Assembly: GCA_944326705.1 (NCBI GenBank)
Contig: CALVEY010000008.1
Span: 1 to 64,000 of the forward strand
Direction: 5' to 3'
DNA: 64,000 nt
DNA from: an uncultured Mucispirillum sp.
GTDB lineage: Bacteria; Chrysiogenota; Deferribacteres; Deferribacterales; Mucispirillaceae
Positions within the stretch are counted from its first letter, which is position 1. Each line of letters starts with the position of its first letter. Below the pieces are notes generated by a model that was given only the letters and a program-made list of their open reading frames with translations, was not told the origin of the DNA and made no database searches. Both the position numbers and the translations under genes were made by a program. Below are positions 16,153 to 57,181 of this stretch, piece after piece.

Positions 16153-17190
16153 ATGATTTTTGGAAAAAAACCACGAATGATGGCAAAATTTAAAAAACAT
16201 TATGATAGACATAAAAATAATAACTTTATTGGGGGGGGGCAAAAAGAATTTGTGCCATGGGGCTTTACTCTAAATTATGATAACAAATGTAATTTTAAAT
16301 GTCAGCATTGTTTTACAAAATCATCTCTTGGTGATTTTGGTAAATCAACATTATCTCTTGAAGATGTAAAAAGTCTTGCAGACCAGGCAGATGAATTAGG
16401 CTGTTTTGAAGTAGATATTCAAGGTGGCGAGCCTTTAATGAATAAAGACTTATTTAACATATTAGAAGCTGTAGATACCTCAAGATTTTATACATATCTT
16501 ACTTCTAATGGCTGGTTTATGACTGAAGAAATGGCAAAAAAATTAGCTGAGGCTGGTGTTGATAGAGTATTGATTTCAATAGACAGTTTCACACCAGAAG
16601 AACATGATAAGTTCCGTGGTAAAAAAGGTGCATATGAAAGAGCTATGCAGGCTATGAAGTATATAAAAGATGCAGGTATGAGAGCATTTTTTTCTGTTAC
16701 TATTGGCAATTATAATGCACAAAGCAAAGAGCTGGAAGATTTTACAAAGTTTGCAGCAGCAAATAAATATGGTTTAATTTTCAACTGTGCTTCTCCATCT
16801 GGTGCATGGAAAGGTCATTATGATATGATGATGAGTGAAGCTGATACGAAAAAAGTTGAAGAATTAAGGGCAAATAACCCAGAAATTATAAGAGACTTAT
16901 GGAATATTTTAGATAATAATGATTTAATTGTAGGCTGTCCAGCAGTAAACTTTTTCTATGTAAATCCTTATGGTGATGTGCTGCCATGTGTATTTATGCA
17001 TACATCAATGGGAAATATAAAAGAAAAACCGTTAAAAGATATACTAATGCATGGCTTTGAATTTGAACAGTTAAATAAATTAAGTCCGAAATGCTTAACA
17101 GGTGAAAATATTGATTTTGCAAAAAAATACTTAAATCAAGAAACTTCTGTTATGCAGCCTATGATGATTGATGAATTTTTTAAGGCATAA
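16153..17190 (+). CDS. Radical SAM/SPASM-like enzyme with G9 tract, probably phase-variable
   Basis: The 345-residue protein has the radical SAM cluster motif CNFKCQHC (Cys46, 50, 53), a GGEPLMNKDLF motif near residue 95 and a shortened SPASM-like C-terminus (CPAVNFFYVNPYGDVLPC, then GNIKEKPLKDIL and a further Cys). A G9 run at 16231-16239 encodes Gly27-29, before the catalytic motif. The gene is in frame as sequenced; one G fewer meets TAA at 16271, one more meets TGA at 16278. Twelve bases separate it from luxC. Substrate unknown; a peptide or carrier-bound group is possible. Confidence 0.85.
   Translation: MIFGKKPRMMAKFKKHYDRHKNNNFIGGGQKEFVPWGFTLNYDNKCNFKCQHCFTKSSLGDFGKSTLSLEDVKSLADQADELGCFEVDIQGGEPLMNKDLFNILEAVDTSRFYTYLTSNGWFMTEEMAKKLAEAGVDRVLISIDSFTPEEHDKFRGKKGAYERAMQAMKYIKDAGMRAFFSVTIGNYNAQSKELEDFTKFAAANKYGLIFNCASPSGAWKGHYDMMMSEADTKKVEELRANNPEIIRDLWNILDNNDLIVGCPAVNFFYVNPYGDVLPCVFMHTSMGNIKEKPLKDILMHGFEFEQLNKLSPKCLTGENIDFAKKYLNQETSVMQPMMIDEFFKA
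16231..16239 (+). repeat. G9 homopolymer tract in the radical SAM gene
   Basis: Nine consecutive G in an otherwise AT-rich gene, codon-aligned as GGG GGG GGG. Only one other run of this length occurs in the window (in hsdS). Such tracts are classic sites of slipped-strand phase variation. Confidence 0.85.
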
Positions 17191-50284: not shown

Positions 50285-51850
50285 ATGGATATTAAAAAAG
50301 AGCAGGAACGAGCAGAACTACATAAAATAATATGGAATATTGCCGATGATTTGCGAGGCACTGTTGATGGCTGGGATTTTAAGCAGTATGTATTAGGAAT
50401 GCTTTTTTATAGATATATATCTGAAAATATTACAGACTATATCAATGACAATGAACATAAAAGTGGCGATAAAGATTTTGATTATGCAAAACTTGATGAT
50501 AATGAGATAAATGATGATATTATAGATGAAATAGTAAGCACAAAAGGATATTTTATATATCCAAGCCAGCTTTTTAGTAATGTATGTAAAAAGTCAGTTA
50601 GTGATGAAGATTTAAATGAAACTCTTAGCAATATTTTTAGAAATATAGAAAATTCTGCCATAGGTAAACAGAGTGAAGATAATTTTAAGGGTTTATTTGA
50701 TGATTTTGATGTAAACAGTAAAAAATTAGGTTCATCAGTAGTAGAAAGAGTAGAAAAATTAAGAAAATTAATAAGCGGTATAGCTTCTATGAATTTAGGT
50801 AGCTATGGAGAAAATACAATAGATATTTTTGGTGATGCTTATGAATTTTTAATGGGTATGTATGCATCAAATGCTGGTAAAAGTGGTGGTGAGTATTACA
50901 CACCACAGGAAGTATCAGAGCTTTTAACAAGATTAACTTTGATAGGTAAAAAAGAAGTAAATAAAGTATATGACCCAGCTTGTGGTAGTGGTTCTTTATT
51001 ATTAAAATATGCAAAAATTTTAGGACATGGAAATGTGCGAATAGGTTTTTTTGGACAGGAAACCAATATAACAACATATAACTTATGCCGTATTAATATG
51101 TTTTTGCATAATATTCCTTATGATAAATTTAATATAGCCCATGGGGATACATTAACTAACCCGCAGCATGATGATTTTGAGCCTTTTGAAGCAATAGTTT
51201 CTAACCCGCCTTATTCTACAAAATGGAAAGGTGATGATGACCCTGTCTTGATTAATGACCCTAGGTATTCACCAGCTGGTGTGTTAGCCCCTAAATCAAA
51301 AGCAGATTTTGCTTTTATAATGCACTGCCTTTCTTGGCTTGCAGGCAGTGGCACAGCAGCAATAGTGTGTTTTCCGGGTATTTTTTACCGTGGCGGAGCA
51401 GAACAAAAAATACGAAAATATTTAGTTGATAATAACTTTATTGATTGCGTTATACAGATGCCAGAAAATCTTTTTTACGGCACTTCTATTGCAACCTGTG
51501 TAATGGTGCTAAAAAAGAATAAACAAGATAGTAGTATATTTTTTATAAATGCATCAAAAGAATTTGTAAAAGTTACAAATAATAATAAATTAACACAGAA
51601 TAATATTAACAATATTTTAAAATACTATGAAGAAAGAAGAGATGTAGAATATATTTCATCACTTGTAAAGTATGAGAAAGTTGTAGAAGAAAATTATAAT
51701 TTATCAGTAAATACTTATGTGGAAATAGAAGATACGAGAGAAAAAATAGATATAAATATATTAAATAAAGAGATAGACGAAATAGTAAAAAAACAACAGG
51801 TGTTAAGGGATAATATTGATAAAATAGTTGTAGAACTTGGAGATATTTAA
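50285..51850 (+). CDS. hsdM: Type I restriction-modification DNA methyltransferase subunit HsdM
   Basis: 521 residues, usual for HsdM. N-terminal helical HsdM_N domain (ELHKIIWNIADDLRGTVDGWDFKQYVLGMLFYRYIS), SAM motif VYDPACGSGSLLLKYAK near residue 229 and the N6-adenine catalytic motif SNPPYS near residue 305. ASNAGKSGGEYYTPQEVSELL near residue 197 is the conserved GEFYTP-type region. Stop overlaps the next start (TAATG). Confidence 0.96.
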   Translation: MDIKKEQERAELHKIIWNIADDLRGTVDGWDFKQYVLGMLFYRYISENITDYINDNEHKSGDKDFDYAKLDDNEINDDIIDEIVSTKGYFIYPSQLFSNVCKKSVSDEDLNETLSNIFRNIENSAIGKQSEDNFKGLFDDFDVNSKKLGSSVVERVEKLRKLISGIASMNLGSYGENTIDIFGDAYEFLMGMYASNAGKSGGEYYTPQEVSELLTRLTLIGKKEVNKVYDPACGSGSLLLKYAKILGHGNVRIGFFGQETNITTYNLCRINMFLHNIPYDKFNIAHGDTLTNPQHDDFEPFEAIVSNPPYSTKWKGDDDPVLINDPRYSPAGVLAPKSKADFAFIMHCLSWLAGSGTAAIVCFPGIFYRGGAEQKIRKYLVDNNFIDCVIQMPENLFYGTSIATCVMVLKKNKQDSSIFFINASKEFVKVTNNNKLTQNNINNILKYYEERRDVEYISSLVKYEKVVEENYNLSVNTYVEIEDTREKIDINILNKEIDEIVKKQQVLRDNIDKIVVELGDI

Positions 51851-52842
51851 TGACACCAGTGGAATTTATATTATATAAAGATATATCAGAAAGTATATCG
51901 GTAGATGTAGTTATAAAAGATGAAACGCTATGGCTTACCCAAAAATCTATGGCGGAATTATTTGGATGTTCTGCAGATAATATATCACTGCATTTAAAAA
52001 ATATATTTAATAGTGGAGAGTTAGATAAACAGTCAGTTACCGAGAAAATCTCGGTAACTGCAACAGATGGAAAAAATTATTTAGTAAATTTTTATAATCT
52101 TGATGCAGTTATATCTGTAGGTTATCGTGTAAATTCATCAAAAGCCACTAAATTTAGAATATGGGCAACTGGTGTTCTAAAAGAGTTTATACAGAAAGGT
52201 TTTGTTTTAGATGATGAAAGATTAAAGCAGGGTAAAACTGTTTTTGGTAAAGATTATTTTAAAGAACTTTTAGAAAGAGTTCGCTCAATAAGAGCAAGTG
52301 AAAGAAGAATATGGCAGCAGATAACAGATATTTTTGCAGAATGCTCAATAGATTATAATAAAAATTCTAATATAACAAAAGAATTTTTTGCAACTATTCA
52401 AAATAAATTTCACTATGCAATTACTCATCAAACAGCTGCAGAAATAATATATAATAATGCTGACAGCAAAAAAGAACATATGGGGCTTACAACTTGGAAA
52501 AATGCACCTTCGGGGAGAATATTAAAATCAGATGTGTTGATTGCTAAAAATTATTTATCAGAAAAAGAAATAAGACAGCTGGAAAGAGCAGTAACTGGTT
52601 ATTTTGATTATATTGAAGATTTAATAGAGCGGGAAAATACTTTTACAATGGAAGAATTTTCTGCAAGTGTATCAGAATTTTTAAATTTTAGAAGATATGA
52701 AATATTGCATGATAAGGGAAGTATATCAATGGATAAGGCAAAAGATAAAGCAGAGCAGGAATATAATGTTTTTAATAAGCATCAGAAAATTAATTCTGAT
52801 TTTGATAAATTCAGCCAGAAACTGCTGAAAGATAAGGATTAA
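51850..52842 (+). CDS. rhuM: RhuM family protein inserted between hsdM and hsdS
   Basis: 330 residues. WLTQKSMAELFGCSADNISLHLKNIF near residue 28 is a helix-turn-helix-like region, and FYNLDAVISVGYRVNSSKATKFRIWATGVLKEFIQKGFVLDDERLKQG near residue 80 is the RhuM hallmark. RhuM was first named from Salmonella SPI-3; members are often lodged inside type I restriction operons, with no proven role. Overlap with hsdM and a 3-base gap to hsdS keep it in the operon. An intragenic perfect palindrome lies at 52034-52060. Confidence 0.9.
   Translation: MTPVEFILYKDISESISVDVVIKDETLWLTQKSMAELFGCSADNISLHLKNIFNSGELDKQSVTEKISVTATDGKNYLVNFYNLDAVISVGYRVNSSKATKFRIWATGVLKEFIQKGFVLDDERLKQGKTVFGKDYFKELLERVRSIRASERRIWQQITDIFAECSIDYNKNSNITKEFFATIQNKFHYAITHQTAAEIIYNNADSKKEHMGLTTWKNAPSGRILKSDVLIAKNYLSEKEIRQLERAVTGYFDYIEDLIERENTFTMEEFSASVSEFLNFRRYEILHDKGSISMDKAKDKAEQEYNVFNKHQKINSDFDKFSQKLLKDKD
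52034..52060. repeat. Perfect palindrome within rhuM
   Basis: Arms CAGTTACCGAGA and TCTCGGTAACTG (12 bp each) separated by AAA. No T run follows, so it is not a standard terminator. Confidence 0.7.
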
Positions 52843-52845
52843 ACA

Positions 52846-54006
52846 ATGAATAAAATAGAAAAAATGATAAAAGAATTATGCCCTAACGGAGTAGAGTGGA
52901 AGAAATTAGGGGAAGTGTTACAGTATGAACAGCCAACAAAATATATTGTAAAAAATACTGATTATATAGACAATGGAATACCAGTTTTAACAGCAGGTAA
53001 AACTTTTATATTAGGTTATACAAATGAAAATAATTATTATCCAGCCACAAAAGATAATCCTGTTATTTTATTTGATGACTTTACAACAGCATTTAAATGG
53101 ATAGATTTTAATTTTAAAGTGAAATCATCAGCAGTAAAATTATTAACATTAATTGATAATAAAAATTATATATTTAAATATATTTATTATGCTATGCAAT
53201 CTATACATTATGCAACATTGGAACATTCAAGACAATGGATAGAAAAATATAGTAATATTCAAATCCCTATTCCACCGCTTGCGGTGCAAGCGGAAATTGT
53301 CAAGATACTTGACAATTTTACCGAGCTAACCGCCGAGCTAACCGCCGAGCTAACCGCCGAGCTAACCGCTAGAAAAAAACAGTATGAATATTACAGAGAT
53401 AAACTTTTGTCATTTGACAATATTCTAAAACGGGGGGGGGTAATTAAAAAATTAGGGGAAATTGGTAGAATATCAATGTGCAAAAGAATTTTTAAAAATG
53501 AAACACAAGATAGCGGTGAGATACCTTTTTATAAAATAGGCACATTTGGCAAAAAAGCAGATGCATTTATATCAAAAAAGTTATTTGAAGAATATAAAAT
53601 AAAATATCCATACCCTAAAAAAGGATATGTTCTTTTATCAGCTTCTGGGACTATTGGTAGATGTATTATTTTTAATGGTGAAGATTCATATTATCAAGAC
53701 TCCAATATTGTTTGGTTGGAACATGATGAAAATATTGTTATGAATAAATATTTATATCACTTTTATAAAGTAGCTAAATGGAAAATTGATAGTGGTGGCA
53801 CTGTTTCAAGGCTTTATAATAGCAACATTCTAAATACAGAAATCCCTATTCCACCCCTTGAAGTGCAGCAAGAGATAGTAGATATATTAGATAAATTTGA
53901 AAGTATGTGTAATAGTTTAACAGAAGGCTTGCCAGCAGAGATTGAAGCAAGAAAAAAGCAGTATGAGTATTATAGAGATAAGCTATTAAGTTTTGAACAC
54001 AATTAA
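52846..54006 (+). CDS. hsdS: Type I restriction-modification specificity subunit HsdS, with two slippage-prone tracts
   Basis: 386 residues with the two-fold layout of HsdS: target-recognition domain 1 (about 1-140), central conserved helix with four ELTA repeats (residues 160-175) and ARKKQYEYYRDKLLSF, target-recognition domain 2 (about 200-345) and a second conserved helix ending ARKKQYEYYRDKLLSF. IPIPPL precedes each helix. A G9 run at 53432-53440 encodes Arg-Gly-Gly-Val between the halves; as sequenced it is in frame. One G fewer gives TAA at 53441, one more gives TAA at 53445, leaving a 198- to 200-residue half-subunit. Confidence 0.95.
   Translation: MNKIEKMIKELCPNGVEWKKLGEVLQYEQPTKYIVKNTDYIDNGIPVLTAGKTFILGYTNENNYYPATKDNPVILFDDFTTAFKWIDFNFKVKSSAVKLLTLIDNKNYIFKYIYYAMQSIHYATLEHSRQWIEKYSNIQIPIPPLAVQAEIVKILDNFTELTAELTAELTAELTARKKQYEYYRDKLLSFDNILKRGGVIKKLGEIGRISMCKRIFKNETQDSGEIPFYKIGTFGKKADAFISKKLFEEYKIKYPYPKKGYVLLSASGTIGRCIIFNGEDSYYQDSNIVWLEHDENIVMNKYLYHFYKVAKWKIDSGGTVSRLYNSNILNTEIPIPPLEVQQEIVDILDKFESMCNSLTEGLPAEIEARKKQYEYYRDKLLSFEHN
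53323..53370 (+). repeat. Four tandem 12-bp repeats in hsdS (ELTA)
   Basis: The unit GAGCTAACCGCC occurs three times perfectly and a fourth time with one change (final T), all in frame as Glu-Leu-Thr-Ala. The repeats are GC-rich against an AT-rich gene. EcoR124I and EcoR124II differ by two versus three copies of the equivalent TAEL repeat, which changes the spacer of their recognition site. Confidence 0.95.
53371..53404 (+). repeat. Direct repeat, copy 1, in hsdS central conserved region
   Basis: 34-bp segment encoding ARKKQYEYYRDK-type helix, 30 of 34 bases identical to 53950-53983. Such copies can recombine and swap recognition domains. Confidence 0.7.
53432..53440 (+). repeat. G9 homopolymer tract in hsdS
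   Basis: Nine consecutive G preceded by C, with TAATTAA immediately after. Both single-base indel frames stop within three codons of the tract. Confidence 0.9.
53950..53983 (+). repeat. Direct repeat, copy 2, at the hsdS 3' end
   Basis: Second copy of the 34-bp conserved-helix segment seen at 53371-53404 (four differences). Confidence 0.7.
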
Positions 54007-54175: not shown

Positions 54176-57100
54176 ATGGATTACGATATTTTATATGAAA
54201 CAGATTATGAAACAGTTGTTGCAAAATATGAAGATAAAAGAACAGGCAATAAATCTTATCAGTCTGAAAAAGAGCTTGAAATAGAATTAATAGAAAATTT
54301 AAAAAAACTGGGCTATGAATATATTAATATAAAAAATGAAAAAGAGCTTATTGATAATTTTAAAAACCAGCTTGAAAGACTGAATAATTATAAATTTGAG
54401 AATGATGAATGGAATATATTTTTTAAAAAAGAGATACAAAAAGAAGGTGTTTTAGAAAAAGCAAAAATAATACATAATGATGACTGTATAACAACAACTA
54501 TTAATAATAAAGGAATATCCAAAAATATTAAACTAATAGACAAAAGTAATATTCATGAAAATAAATTACAGGTTATAAACCAATACAGAGAAGAGAAAGG
54601 GACATATAAATCACGATACGATGTAACAATTTTAATTAATGGGCTTCCACTTATACATATTGAACTTAAAAGGAGAGGGGTTGCATTAGAGCAGGCTTTT
54701 AATCAGATTACTAGATATCAGAGAAATAGTTTTTGGGCGGGAAGCTCATTATTTGAATTTGTGCAGATATTTGTTATATCAAATGGAACTCATACAAAAT
54801 ATTATTCAAATACCACAAGGCTTAATAGTGCAAATCATCATAAAAAAACAAATAATACTTTTGAGTTTACTATATTTTTTGCAGATGCAGAAAATAGGCG
54901 GATAACTGATTTAGTAAATTTTACAAATTACTTTTTTGCCCGTCATACTATATTAAATATTCTAACTAAATATTGTGTATTAACTGAAGATAATAATCTT
55001 TTAGTAATGCGACCTTATCAAATTGTAGCTTGTGAAAGAATATTAAATAAAATAAAATATGCAGAAAATAAAAATATATATGGTAAAATAGAAGCAGGGG
55101 GATATATTTGGCATACAACAGGAAGTGGAAAAACTTTAACTTCTTTTAAAACATCACTGCTAGCTTCAAAAACAGATTATATTGATAAAGTGCTTTTTGT
55201 AGTAGATAGAAAAGATTTAGATTATCAGACAATAAAAGAATATGAAAAATATAAAAAGGGCTGTGTATCATCTAATAAAAGCACTAAGATTTTGCAAGAA
55301 CAAATAGAAAATGATAATAAAATTATAGTTACAACTATTCAAAAGCTTTCTACATTTATTAAAAAAAATAAAGTTCATAATATTTATAATAAAAAAGTAG
55401 TTATTATATTTGATGAATGCCACAGGTCTCAGTTTGGAGAAATGCATACAAATATAACTAAACATTTTAAAAAATACGCTATATTTGGCTTTACTGGCAC
55501 TCCTATTTTTAAAGAAAATGCGTCAAATATTAATAAACTTCAAGGAAAAACCACACCACAGGTATTTGGTAATAAGCTGCATACTTATACAATAGTAGAT
55601 GCAATACATGATGAAACTGTTCTTCCTTTTAAAGTAGAATATCATAATACTTTTAAAAATAAAGATGAAATAGAAGATAAAAAAGTGCCAGCTATTAATA
55701 AAGAAGAAGTTTTTTTATATGAAAAAAGGCTTACTAATATAGCAGCTTATATATTGCAAAATTTTGATATTAAAACAAAAAGAAATAGTTTGTATAACTT
55801 ATCTGGAAAAAGAGTAAATGGGTTTAATTCAATATTAGCAGTAAGCAGTATTGAAGCAGCCATAAAGTATTATAATATTTTTAAAAAATTAAATACAGGT
55901 AGTGAACTTTTAAGAATTGCTACAATATTTAGCTTTAACCCTAATGAAGAAGAAAATGGATATATTGATGATGAAAGCATAGATACAGAAAATCTTGATG
56001 TAGGCAGTAGAGAGTTTTTAGATAGTGCAATAGCTGATTATAATAATATATTTAATACATCTTTTGACACAAGCAGCGAAAAATTTGAAAATTATTATAA
56101 AGATATTTCTCAAAGAATGAAAAATAAAGAGATTGATTTATTAATAGTTGTAAATATGTTTTTAACTGGGTTTGATGCTAAAACATTAAATACCTTATGG
56201 GTAGATAAAAATTTAAAATATCATTCATTGATTCAGGCTTTTTCAAGAACTAATAGAATATTAAATTCAGTAAAAACTTTTGGAAATATAATATGTTTTA
56301 GAAATCTTGTAAAAGATGTAGAAAATGCCATTGCTTTATTTGGTAATAAAGATGCTGAAAATATTGTATTATTAAAAAGTTTTAACAGCTATTTTTATGG
56401 ATATGATGAAAATGGGGAACATATTTTTGGATATATTGATTATATAAATAAACTTTATGATAAATACCCACTAAATAGTGAAATTATAACAGAACAAGAT
56501 ATAAAAGAATTTATTAAATTATTTGGTGTAATTTTAAAATTTAGAAATATATTATCAACTTTTGAAGAATTTATAGTAAATGACCCATTTATAAAAGAAA
56601 ATAAAGAACGAGATTTACAAGATTATCAAAGTATATATATTGATTTATATAGTACATTTGTAAAAAAAGAAGAAAGTGAGAAAGAAAGTATATTAGATGA
56701 TATAGTATTTGAAATAGAGCTTATTAAACAGGTGGAAGTAAATATTGATTATATTTTAAAACTTGTTATGCAGTATTTATTAAATAATAAAAAAGATGAA
56801 GAGCTTTCTGTAAAAATTTATAAAACAATAGATTCTACTATACAATTAAGAAACAAAAAGGAGCTGATAGAACAGTTTATTAATTCTACACATATTGAAA
56901 GTGAAGAAGATGGCTATATCCGTTGGCAAAACTATATAGAAAATGAAAAAGAGAAAGAAATTACAAATATAATAAATGAAGAAAAACTAAAAGAAGAAGA
57001 AACTAAAACTTTTATTAATAATGCTTTTAGAGATGGAGAAATAAAAACAAGTGGTGTTGATTTTGATAAACTGCTACCACCAATTTCAAGGTTTAGTAAA

Positions 57101-57181
57101 ACAGAAAATCGGCAGGAAAAGAAAAATAAAATTGCTGAAAAATTAACATCATTTTTTGAAAAGTTTTTCAATATCAGTTAA
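54176..57181 (+). CDS. hsdR: Type I restriction enzyme R subunit HsdR
   Basis: 1001 residues, full length. N-terminal nuclease domain with PLIHIELKRRG near residue 160 (E-x-K) and a preceding DVTILINGLP; helicase motor with Walker A GYIWHTTGSGKTLTSF near residue 315, DEAD-box variant IIFDECHRSQFG near 412, FTGTPIF near 441 and motif VI region ALIQAFSRTNRIL near 690. It translocates and cuts unmethylated DNA as part of the HsdR2M2S complex. Very AT-rich coding, suggesting either acquisition or relaxed codon use. It follows the palindromic repeat, so it may depend on read-through from hsdS. Confidence 0.95.
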   Translation: MDYDILYETDYETVVAKYEDKRTGNKSYQSEKELEIELIENLKKLGYEYINIKNEKELIDNFKNQLERLNNYKFENDEWNIFFKKEIQKEGVLEKAKIIHNDDCITTTINNKGISKNIKLIDKSNIHENKLQVINQYREEKGTYKSRYDVTILINGLPLIHIELKRRGVALEQAFNQITRYQRNSFWAGSSLFEFVQIFVISNGTHTKYYSNTTRLNSANHHKKTNNTFEFTIFFADAENRRITDLVNFTNYFFARHTILNILTKYCVLTEDNNLLVMRPYQIVACERILNKIKYAENKNIYGKIEAGGYIWHTTGSGKTLTSFKTSLLASKTDYIDKVLFVVDRKDLDYQTIKEYEKYKKGCVSSNKSTKILQEQIENDNKIIVTTIQKLSTFIKKNKVHNIYNKKVVIIFDECHRSQFGEMHTNITKHFKKYAIFGFTGTPIFKENASNINKLQGKTTPQVFGNKLHTYTIVDAIHDETVLPFKVEYHNTFKNKDEIEDKKVPAINKEEVFLYEKRLTNIAAYILQNFDIKTKRNSLYNLSGKRVNGFNSILAVSSIEAAIKYYNIFKKLNTGSELLRIATIFSFNPNEEENGYIDDESIDTENLDVGSREFLDSAIADYNNIFNTSFDTSSEKFENYYKDISQRMKNKEIDLLIVVNMFLTGFDAKTLNTLWVDKNLKYHSLIQAFSRTNRILNSVKTFGNIICFRNLVKDVENAIALFGNKDAENIVLLKSFNSYFYGYDENGEHIFGYIDYINKLYDKYPLNSEIITEQDIKEFIKLFGVILKFRNILSTFEEFIVNDPFIKENKERDLQDYQSIYIDLYSTFVKKEESEKESILDDIVFEIELIKQVEVNIDYILKLVMQYLLNNKKDEELSVKIYKTIDSTIQLRNKKELIEQFINSTHIESEEDGYIRWQNYIENEKEKEITNIINEEKLKEEETKTFINNAFRDGEIKTSGVDFDKLLPPISRFSKTENRQEKKNKIAEKLTSFFEKFFNIS

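Follow-up and report, generated by a model that had tools for sequence, protein, structure and literature searches.

Truncated specificity subunits (S, or HsdS) are known from Type IC restriction-modification (R-M) systems: the engineered truncated S of EcoR124I delta-50 recognizes GAAN7TTC, that of EcoDXXI delta-C, likewise engineered, recognizes TCAN8TGA, and NgoAV, in which S is naturally truncated, has a palindromic site (PMC3874165). In a 2013 review NgoAV, which comes from a pathogen, was the single naturally occurring Type I system listed as having a palindromic site (PMC3874165). NgoAV carries LEAT repeats in addition to a poly-G tract (PMC6789123), and the poly-G switch changes its specificity from GCAN8TGC to GCAN7STCA (PMC9577141). 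Here a comparable arrangement is described in a 64,000-nucleotide stretch of an uncultured Mucispirillum sp. (assembly GCA_944326705.1, contig CALVEY010000008.1, positions 1 to 64,000; hereafter the window), where the hsdS gene of a Type I R-M locus contains a run of nine Gs (G9) that is probably a contingency tract serving as an NgoAV-like specificity switch. The host genome (G000), from a mouse-gut-type bacterium, comprises 2.39 Mb in 79 contigs with 31% GC.

The tract lies within CGGGGGGGGGTAATTAA at 53431-53447, inside the hsdS open reading frame 52846-54006, and has exactly nine Gs, a length that represents the assembly consensus (79 contigs) and not read counts. The features of the gene, including its target-recognition domains (TRDs), the conserved helices D1 and D2 and the stop codons of the shifted frames, are as follows.

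52846-54006, plus strand: hsdS, specificity subunit, 386 amino acids (aa) at G9; Pfam Methylase_S in two stretches; EcoR124 S chain 7bst, E-value 3e-83
52885-53271, plus strand: TRD1 (aa 14-142, approximate boundary), EcoR124 N-TRD type with predicted half-site GAA; 59% identity to TRD1 of an E. coli plasmid S
53272-53424, plus strand: D1, first conserved helix (aa 143-193); 98% identical in the sister species G003 despite differing TRDs; predicted helix 145-187
53321-53369, plus strand: perfect tandem repeat in D1, 12 bp x 4.1 (CCGAGCTAACCG), three TAEL units, spacer-length module
53432-53440, plus strand: G9 slippage tract, D1/TRD2 linker (Arg-Gly-Gly-Val)
53441-53443, plus strand: TAA stop used at G8 and G11, directly 3' of the tract (frame rebuilding)
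53445-53447, plus strand: TAA stop used at G10 and G7, two codons on at G10 (frame rebuilding)
53443-53835, plus strand: TRD2 (aa 200-330, approximate boundary); HsdS of E. coli p88COLEC-2 is 65% identical in TRD2
53836-54003, plus strand: D2, second conserved helix (aa 331-386); 93% identical in G003; predicted helix 338-381

Both helices terminate in RKKQYEYYRDKLLSF; from the AlphaFold model, built on a three-row alignment with a predicted local distance difference test (pLDDT) score of 46, the helix positions alone were used. The preliminary description of this locus had placed the tract between the two halves of HsdS, with a full-length protein at G9, a TAA directly after the tract at G8 and a TAA two codons later at G10, and reconstruction of the frames agrees with it on each point. 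The computed products for G6 to G12 are 385, 199, 198, 386, 200, 199 and 387 aa, the frame being open at G6, G9 and G12 and terminating at G7, G8, G10 and G11 right past TRD1 and its helix, which also bears out the half-subunit of 198-200 residues with one recognition domain that had been proposed. This half product ends in ...KKQYEYYRDKLLSFDNILKRGG(N), immediately past D1. Across 15 coding sequences of the window, 1.4% of codon positions have a stop within two codons in each of the two shifted frames. As in NgoAV, a poly-G run lies between the two halves of S, and a change of frame yields a subunit with a single TRD.

The same locus is present in two sister species, G003 and G006, in which HsdM orthologues (91% and 86% identical, respectively) occupy the same chromosomal slot; a close HsdM was absent from the other genomes of the genus that were searched. 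In G003 the hsdS tract is also G9 and the gene is full length with three TAEL units; relative to the window its linker is 100% and D1 98% identical, whereas TRD1 and TRD2 are only 27% and 32% identical. G006, a single-contig genome, has a G8 tract that divides hsdS: the first half encodes 206 aa and ends in DNILKRGG, and the second lies in a different frame that is without a start codon for 66 codons. Both tract states therefore occur in nature, across species only (G9 in G000 and G003, G8 in G006). The sequences that follow the tract in the three species are TAATTAA, TAACTAA and TAGTTAA; the post-tract substitutions preserve a stop in both shifted frames in all three. Outside the genus, G020, a relative at the level of the order, encodes a stand-alone HsdS of 196 aa, with TRD1 60% identical to that of the window, together with its own hsdM and hsdR.

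Downstream of hsdS in G003 (L135, contig C14), 3'-end remnants of hsdS (GLPAEIEARKKQYEYYRDKLLSF and decayed copies) occupy the interval up to hsdR, suggesting that specificity genes once present there have been replaced and consistent with turnover of TRDs by recombination. Among the remaining genomes of the genus, matches to the conserved junction in G004 and G007 (two mismatches) were rejected, as they fall in unrelated genes of genomes that lack a close HsdM, and three pattern matches from a search for relatives in IMG/VR were likewise rejected, their flanks being unlike hsdS.

By sequence similarity the system belongs to Type IC and to the EcoR124 family: HsdS matches the EcoR124 S chain as listed above, the EcoR124_C domain is found in HsdR (E-value 1.1e-56), and the D1 and D2 repeats are alike. 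Within the linker encoded by the G run, the EcoR124 chain is four residues shorter in the alignment. The E. coli plasmid S that shares 59% identity in TRD1 has a TRD1 that follows the EcoR124 chain, and on this homology the TRD1 of the window is predicted to be of the GAA type. In EcoR124I and EcoR124II the length of the gap in the recognition site is set by the number of TAEL repeats, and hsdS of the window contains the same type of repeat as whole 12-bp TAEL-coding units within D1. There are three units compared with two in the 7bst chain (LTAELTAELNMRKKQ), i.e. one extra 4-aa unit, and three is also the number described for EcoR124II and EcoDXXI. Among the relatives, G003 has three units like G000, and G006 has a shorter degenerate stretch, STNLQAEL. 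The repeat may constitute a second slippage site, at which each unit would shift the gap by one base. The TAEL repeat, the kinship with EcoR124 and the genome-wide set of variable loci outlined below had all been overlooked in the preliminary description.

Long G-runs are not confined to hsdS. G000 contains 37 runs of at least eight Gs (32 G9, three G10 and two G8), and 35 runs of at least nine in 2.39 Mb against 0.01-0.8 expected from Markov models (orders 1-5) that were fitted to the window after masking of its long runs; the hsdS tract thus belongs to a set of slippage loci spread over the whole genome. For 17 tracts both flanks could be matched between G000 and G003, and four of these orthologous pairs are unequal in length, in one case with flanks 96-99% identical. 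Most congeners are also rich in long G-runs, and most genomes of the order's other families, with exceptions, have few or none. Loss of mismatch repair was considered as a source of the runs and rejected, as MutS_I is present in the genome of the window and in most relatives.

Several other tracts deserve mention. A second G9 run in the window (16231-16239) is in frame and close to the start of a putative radical-SAM-type gene (345 aa); in G003 the orthologue has G10. Seven molybdopterin oxidoreductase genes (PF00384) have G8-G10 runs close to their starts, frequently preceded by TCAGAAATTATCTAC (L068, L069, L070, L072, L075, L077 and L087, on G000 contigs C10, C10, C12, C16, C22, C33 and C79); several have a recognized twin-arginine signal, and in G000 the frame is open in some of the genes and shifted in others. 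Phase-variable respiration is possible. C8-C9 runs between TTGAC(A)-like -35 and TATAAT-like -10 elements (e.g. CTTGACATTCCCCCCCCCATGATATAAT) were found at L064, L071 (two), L078, L079, L080, L084 and L086, mostly 35-60 bases upstream of genes, several of which encode putative lipoproteins or outer-membrane proteins, and these runs possibly act as promoter-spacing switches. G9 runs in or at genes for MBOAT acyltransferases, a glycosyltransferase of family 9, a sulfatase-domain protein and an Asp/Glu racemase (L062, L066, L067, L063) likely underlie variation of surface polysaccharides. Very long G-runs in some relatives (for example about 20 in G024 contig C167, and 30 in G013 contig C87 near a contig end) are perhaps real or perhaps sequencing artefacts.

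The hsdS tract is real and conserved, is of the contingency type, and most likely works like that of NgoAV. Replication slippage would alter its length; at G9 (or G6 or G12) a two-TRD HsdS with two HsdM would methylate an asymmetric split site, and at G8 or G10 the immediate stop would give a clean one-TRD half-subunit, two of which would be expected to pair via the D1 helix and methylate a palindrome of the first half-site. Methylation would thereby toggle between two patterns genome-wide, possibly with effects on gene expression. From the three TAEL units, the motif of the full-length form is predicted to be GAA-N7-(TRD2 half-site); kinship with EcoR124 makes the palindrome predictable as well, and by analogy with EcoDXXI delta-C the dimer of half-subunits is predicted to recognize GAA-N8-TTC. 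The TRD1 of G006 is different, and a palindrome other than this one would be expected from its G8 form. Three independent lines support the switch proposed in the preliminary description: the G8 orthologue, the enrichment of G9 runs with length differences between sister species, and the Type IC membership. Slippage within a strain and a change of methylome are inferred.

The main rival is an ON/OFF switch, in which the truncated HsdS would be inactive and G8 or G10 would turn the system off. This is the commonest mode among phase-variable methyltransferases (PMC7394358), and many NgoAV alleles are predicted to be inactive (PMC9577141); however, half-subunits are active in three Type IC systems (EcoR124I, EcoDXXI and NgoAV), the stop is placed right past D1 in both shifted frames, and in G020 the stand-alone half-size S sits beside hsdM and hsdR. 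Simple inactivation appears rather improbable. It is very unlikely that both halves are translated at G8 and pair with the original specificity retained, leaving the tract without phenotype. Co-expressed halves of EcoDXXI do restore the wild-type specificity (PMC3874165), and the window has an in-frame ATG about 11 codons past the tract, but a start there would lose the first residues of TRD2, the second half in the G8 gene of G006 lacks any nearby start, and hsdS2 of NgoAV yields no active protein (PMC9577141). Less likely still is programmed transcriptional or ribosomal slippage, which would supply full and half subunits in one cell with no heritable DNA switch: transcription can slip on long G-runs, but within the genus the length of orthologous tracts varies at the level of the DNA itself and the paralogous oxidoreductases mix open and shut frames, which is the mark of slippage at the DNA level. 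A chance homopolymer or miscalled length, though conceivable in a consensus assembly given that homopolymers are prone to error, is the least likely of all: three species share the tract at one and the same codon, and long runs are far more numerous than expected.

Several observations weigh against the NgoAV-like switch. Variation in tract length was compared between species only, with one genome per species and consensus lengths, and the half-size HsdS gene of G020 could be a relic. The GAA assignment depends on a TRD identity of only about 59%. As hsdR is apparently intact, an abrupt change of specificity would expose unmodified sites, and control of restriction would be needed; moreover, with MutS present slippage gets no help from the loss of mismatch repair.

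The locus lies between radA and fabI in the order hsdM, RhuM-family gene, hsdS, hsdR, with full domain matches; hsdM, hsdS and hsdR are adjacent and each has its own domains, as expected of a Type I R-M system. The genes flanking hsdS are as follows.

50285-51850, plus strand: hsdM, N6-adenine methyltransferase subunit, 521 aa; Pfam N6_Mtase (E-value 7.6e-116) and HsdM_N
51850-52842, plus strand: RhuM-family gene between hsdM and hsdS, 330 aa; Pfam Virulence_RhuM (E-value 8e-105)
54176-57181, plus strand: hsdR, 1001 aa, apparently intact; Pfam HSDR_N, SWI2_SNF2, T1R_D3-like and EcoR124_C

In each of the three species (the window; L031 and L088) a RhuM-family gene separates hsdM from hsdS, and part of its N-terminal region varies among them.

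A broader proposal, which is offered tentatively and may well prove wrong, is that the locus is a combinatorial epigenetic switch in which poly-G decides between one and two TRDs, the number of TAEL copies determines the gap, and species exchange TRDs around a conserved switch cassette. One locus could then cycle through several methylomes. Elsewhere in the genome of this gut commensal, phase variation also seems to affect at least seven molybdopterin oxidoreductases, along with a set of lipoprotein and outer-membrane promoters. No report of phase variation in Mucispirillum, and no earlier report of such a switch in this phylum, was found in the open-licence literature. If the NgoAV-like reading is true, this would be the second such system, kept in three commensal species of a different phylum, one of them in the half-subunit state, and toggling between full and half S subunits would be a recurring strategy. 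The two motifs, GAA-N7-(TRD2 half-site) and GAA-N8-TTC, are predictable before measurement, and the findings point to a large and seemingly unreported phasome in an organism that is used in gnotobiotic mice.

Compared with known systems, the window most resembles NgoAV of Neisseria gonorrhoeae (PMC9577141, PMC6789123) in having poly-G between the hsdS halves, where the frame decides between a one-TRD subunit (about 200 aa) and a full one (about 400 aa), and a tetrapeptide spacer repeat in the same gene (LEAT in NgoAV, TAEL in the window). It differs in belonging to another phylum, in the stops that both shifted frames meet right past the tract, and in having been deposited in the full-length state. 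EcoR124I and EcoR124II share a highly similar S, TAEL units in D1, an EcoR124_C-type HsdR and a GAA-type TRD1; however, a poly-G tract has not been reported for them, their half-subunits are laboratory mutants (PMC3874165), their TRD2 is unlike that of the window, and the window has the RhuM gene between hsdM and hsdS. The Type I system of E. coli plasmid p88COLEC-2 (NZ_CP070908.1) is alike in both TRDs (59% and 65%) and in its three TAEL units, but its shorter linker (KEGEV) is without the tract-coded Gly-Gly pair, and it has no RhuM gene in between, hsdM and hsdS overlapping directly. Inverting hsdS loci, for instance in Streptococcus pneumoniae (PMC7394358), likewise change Type I specificity at random, but through recombination between hsdS copies and not through a homopolymer.
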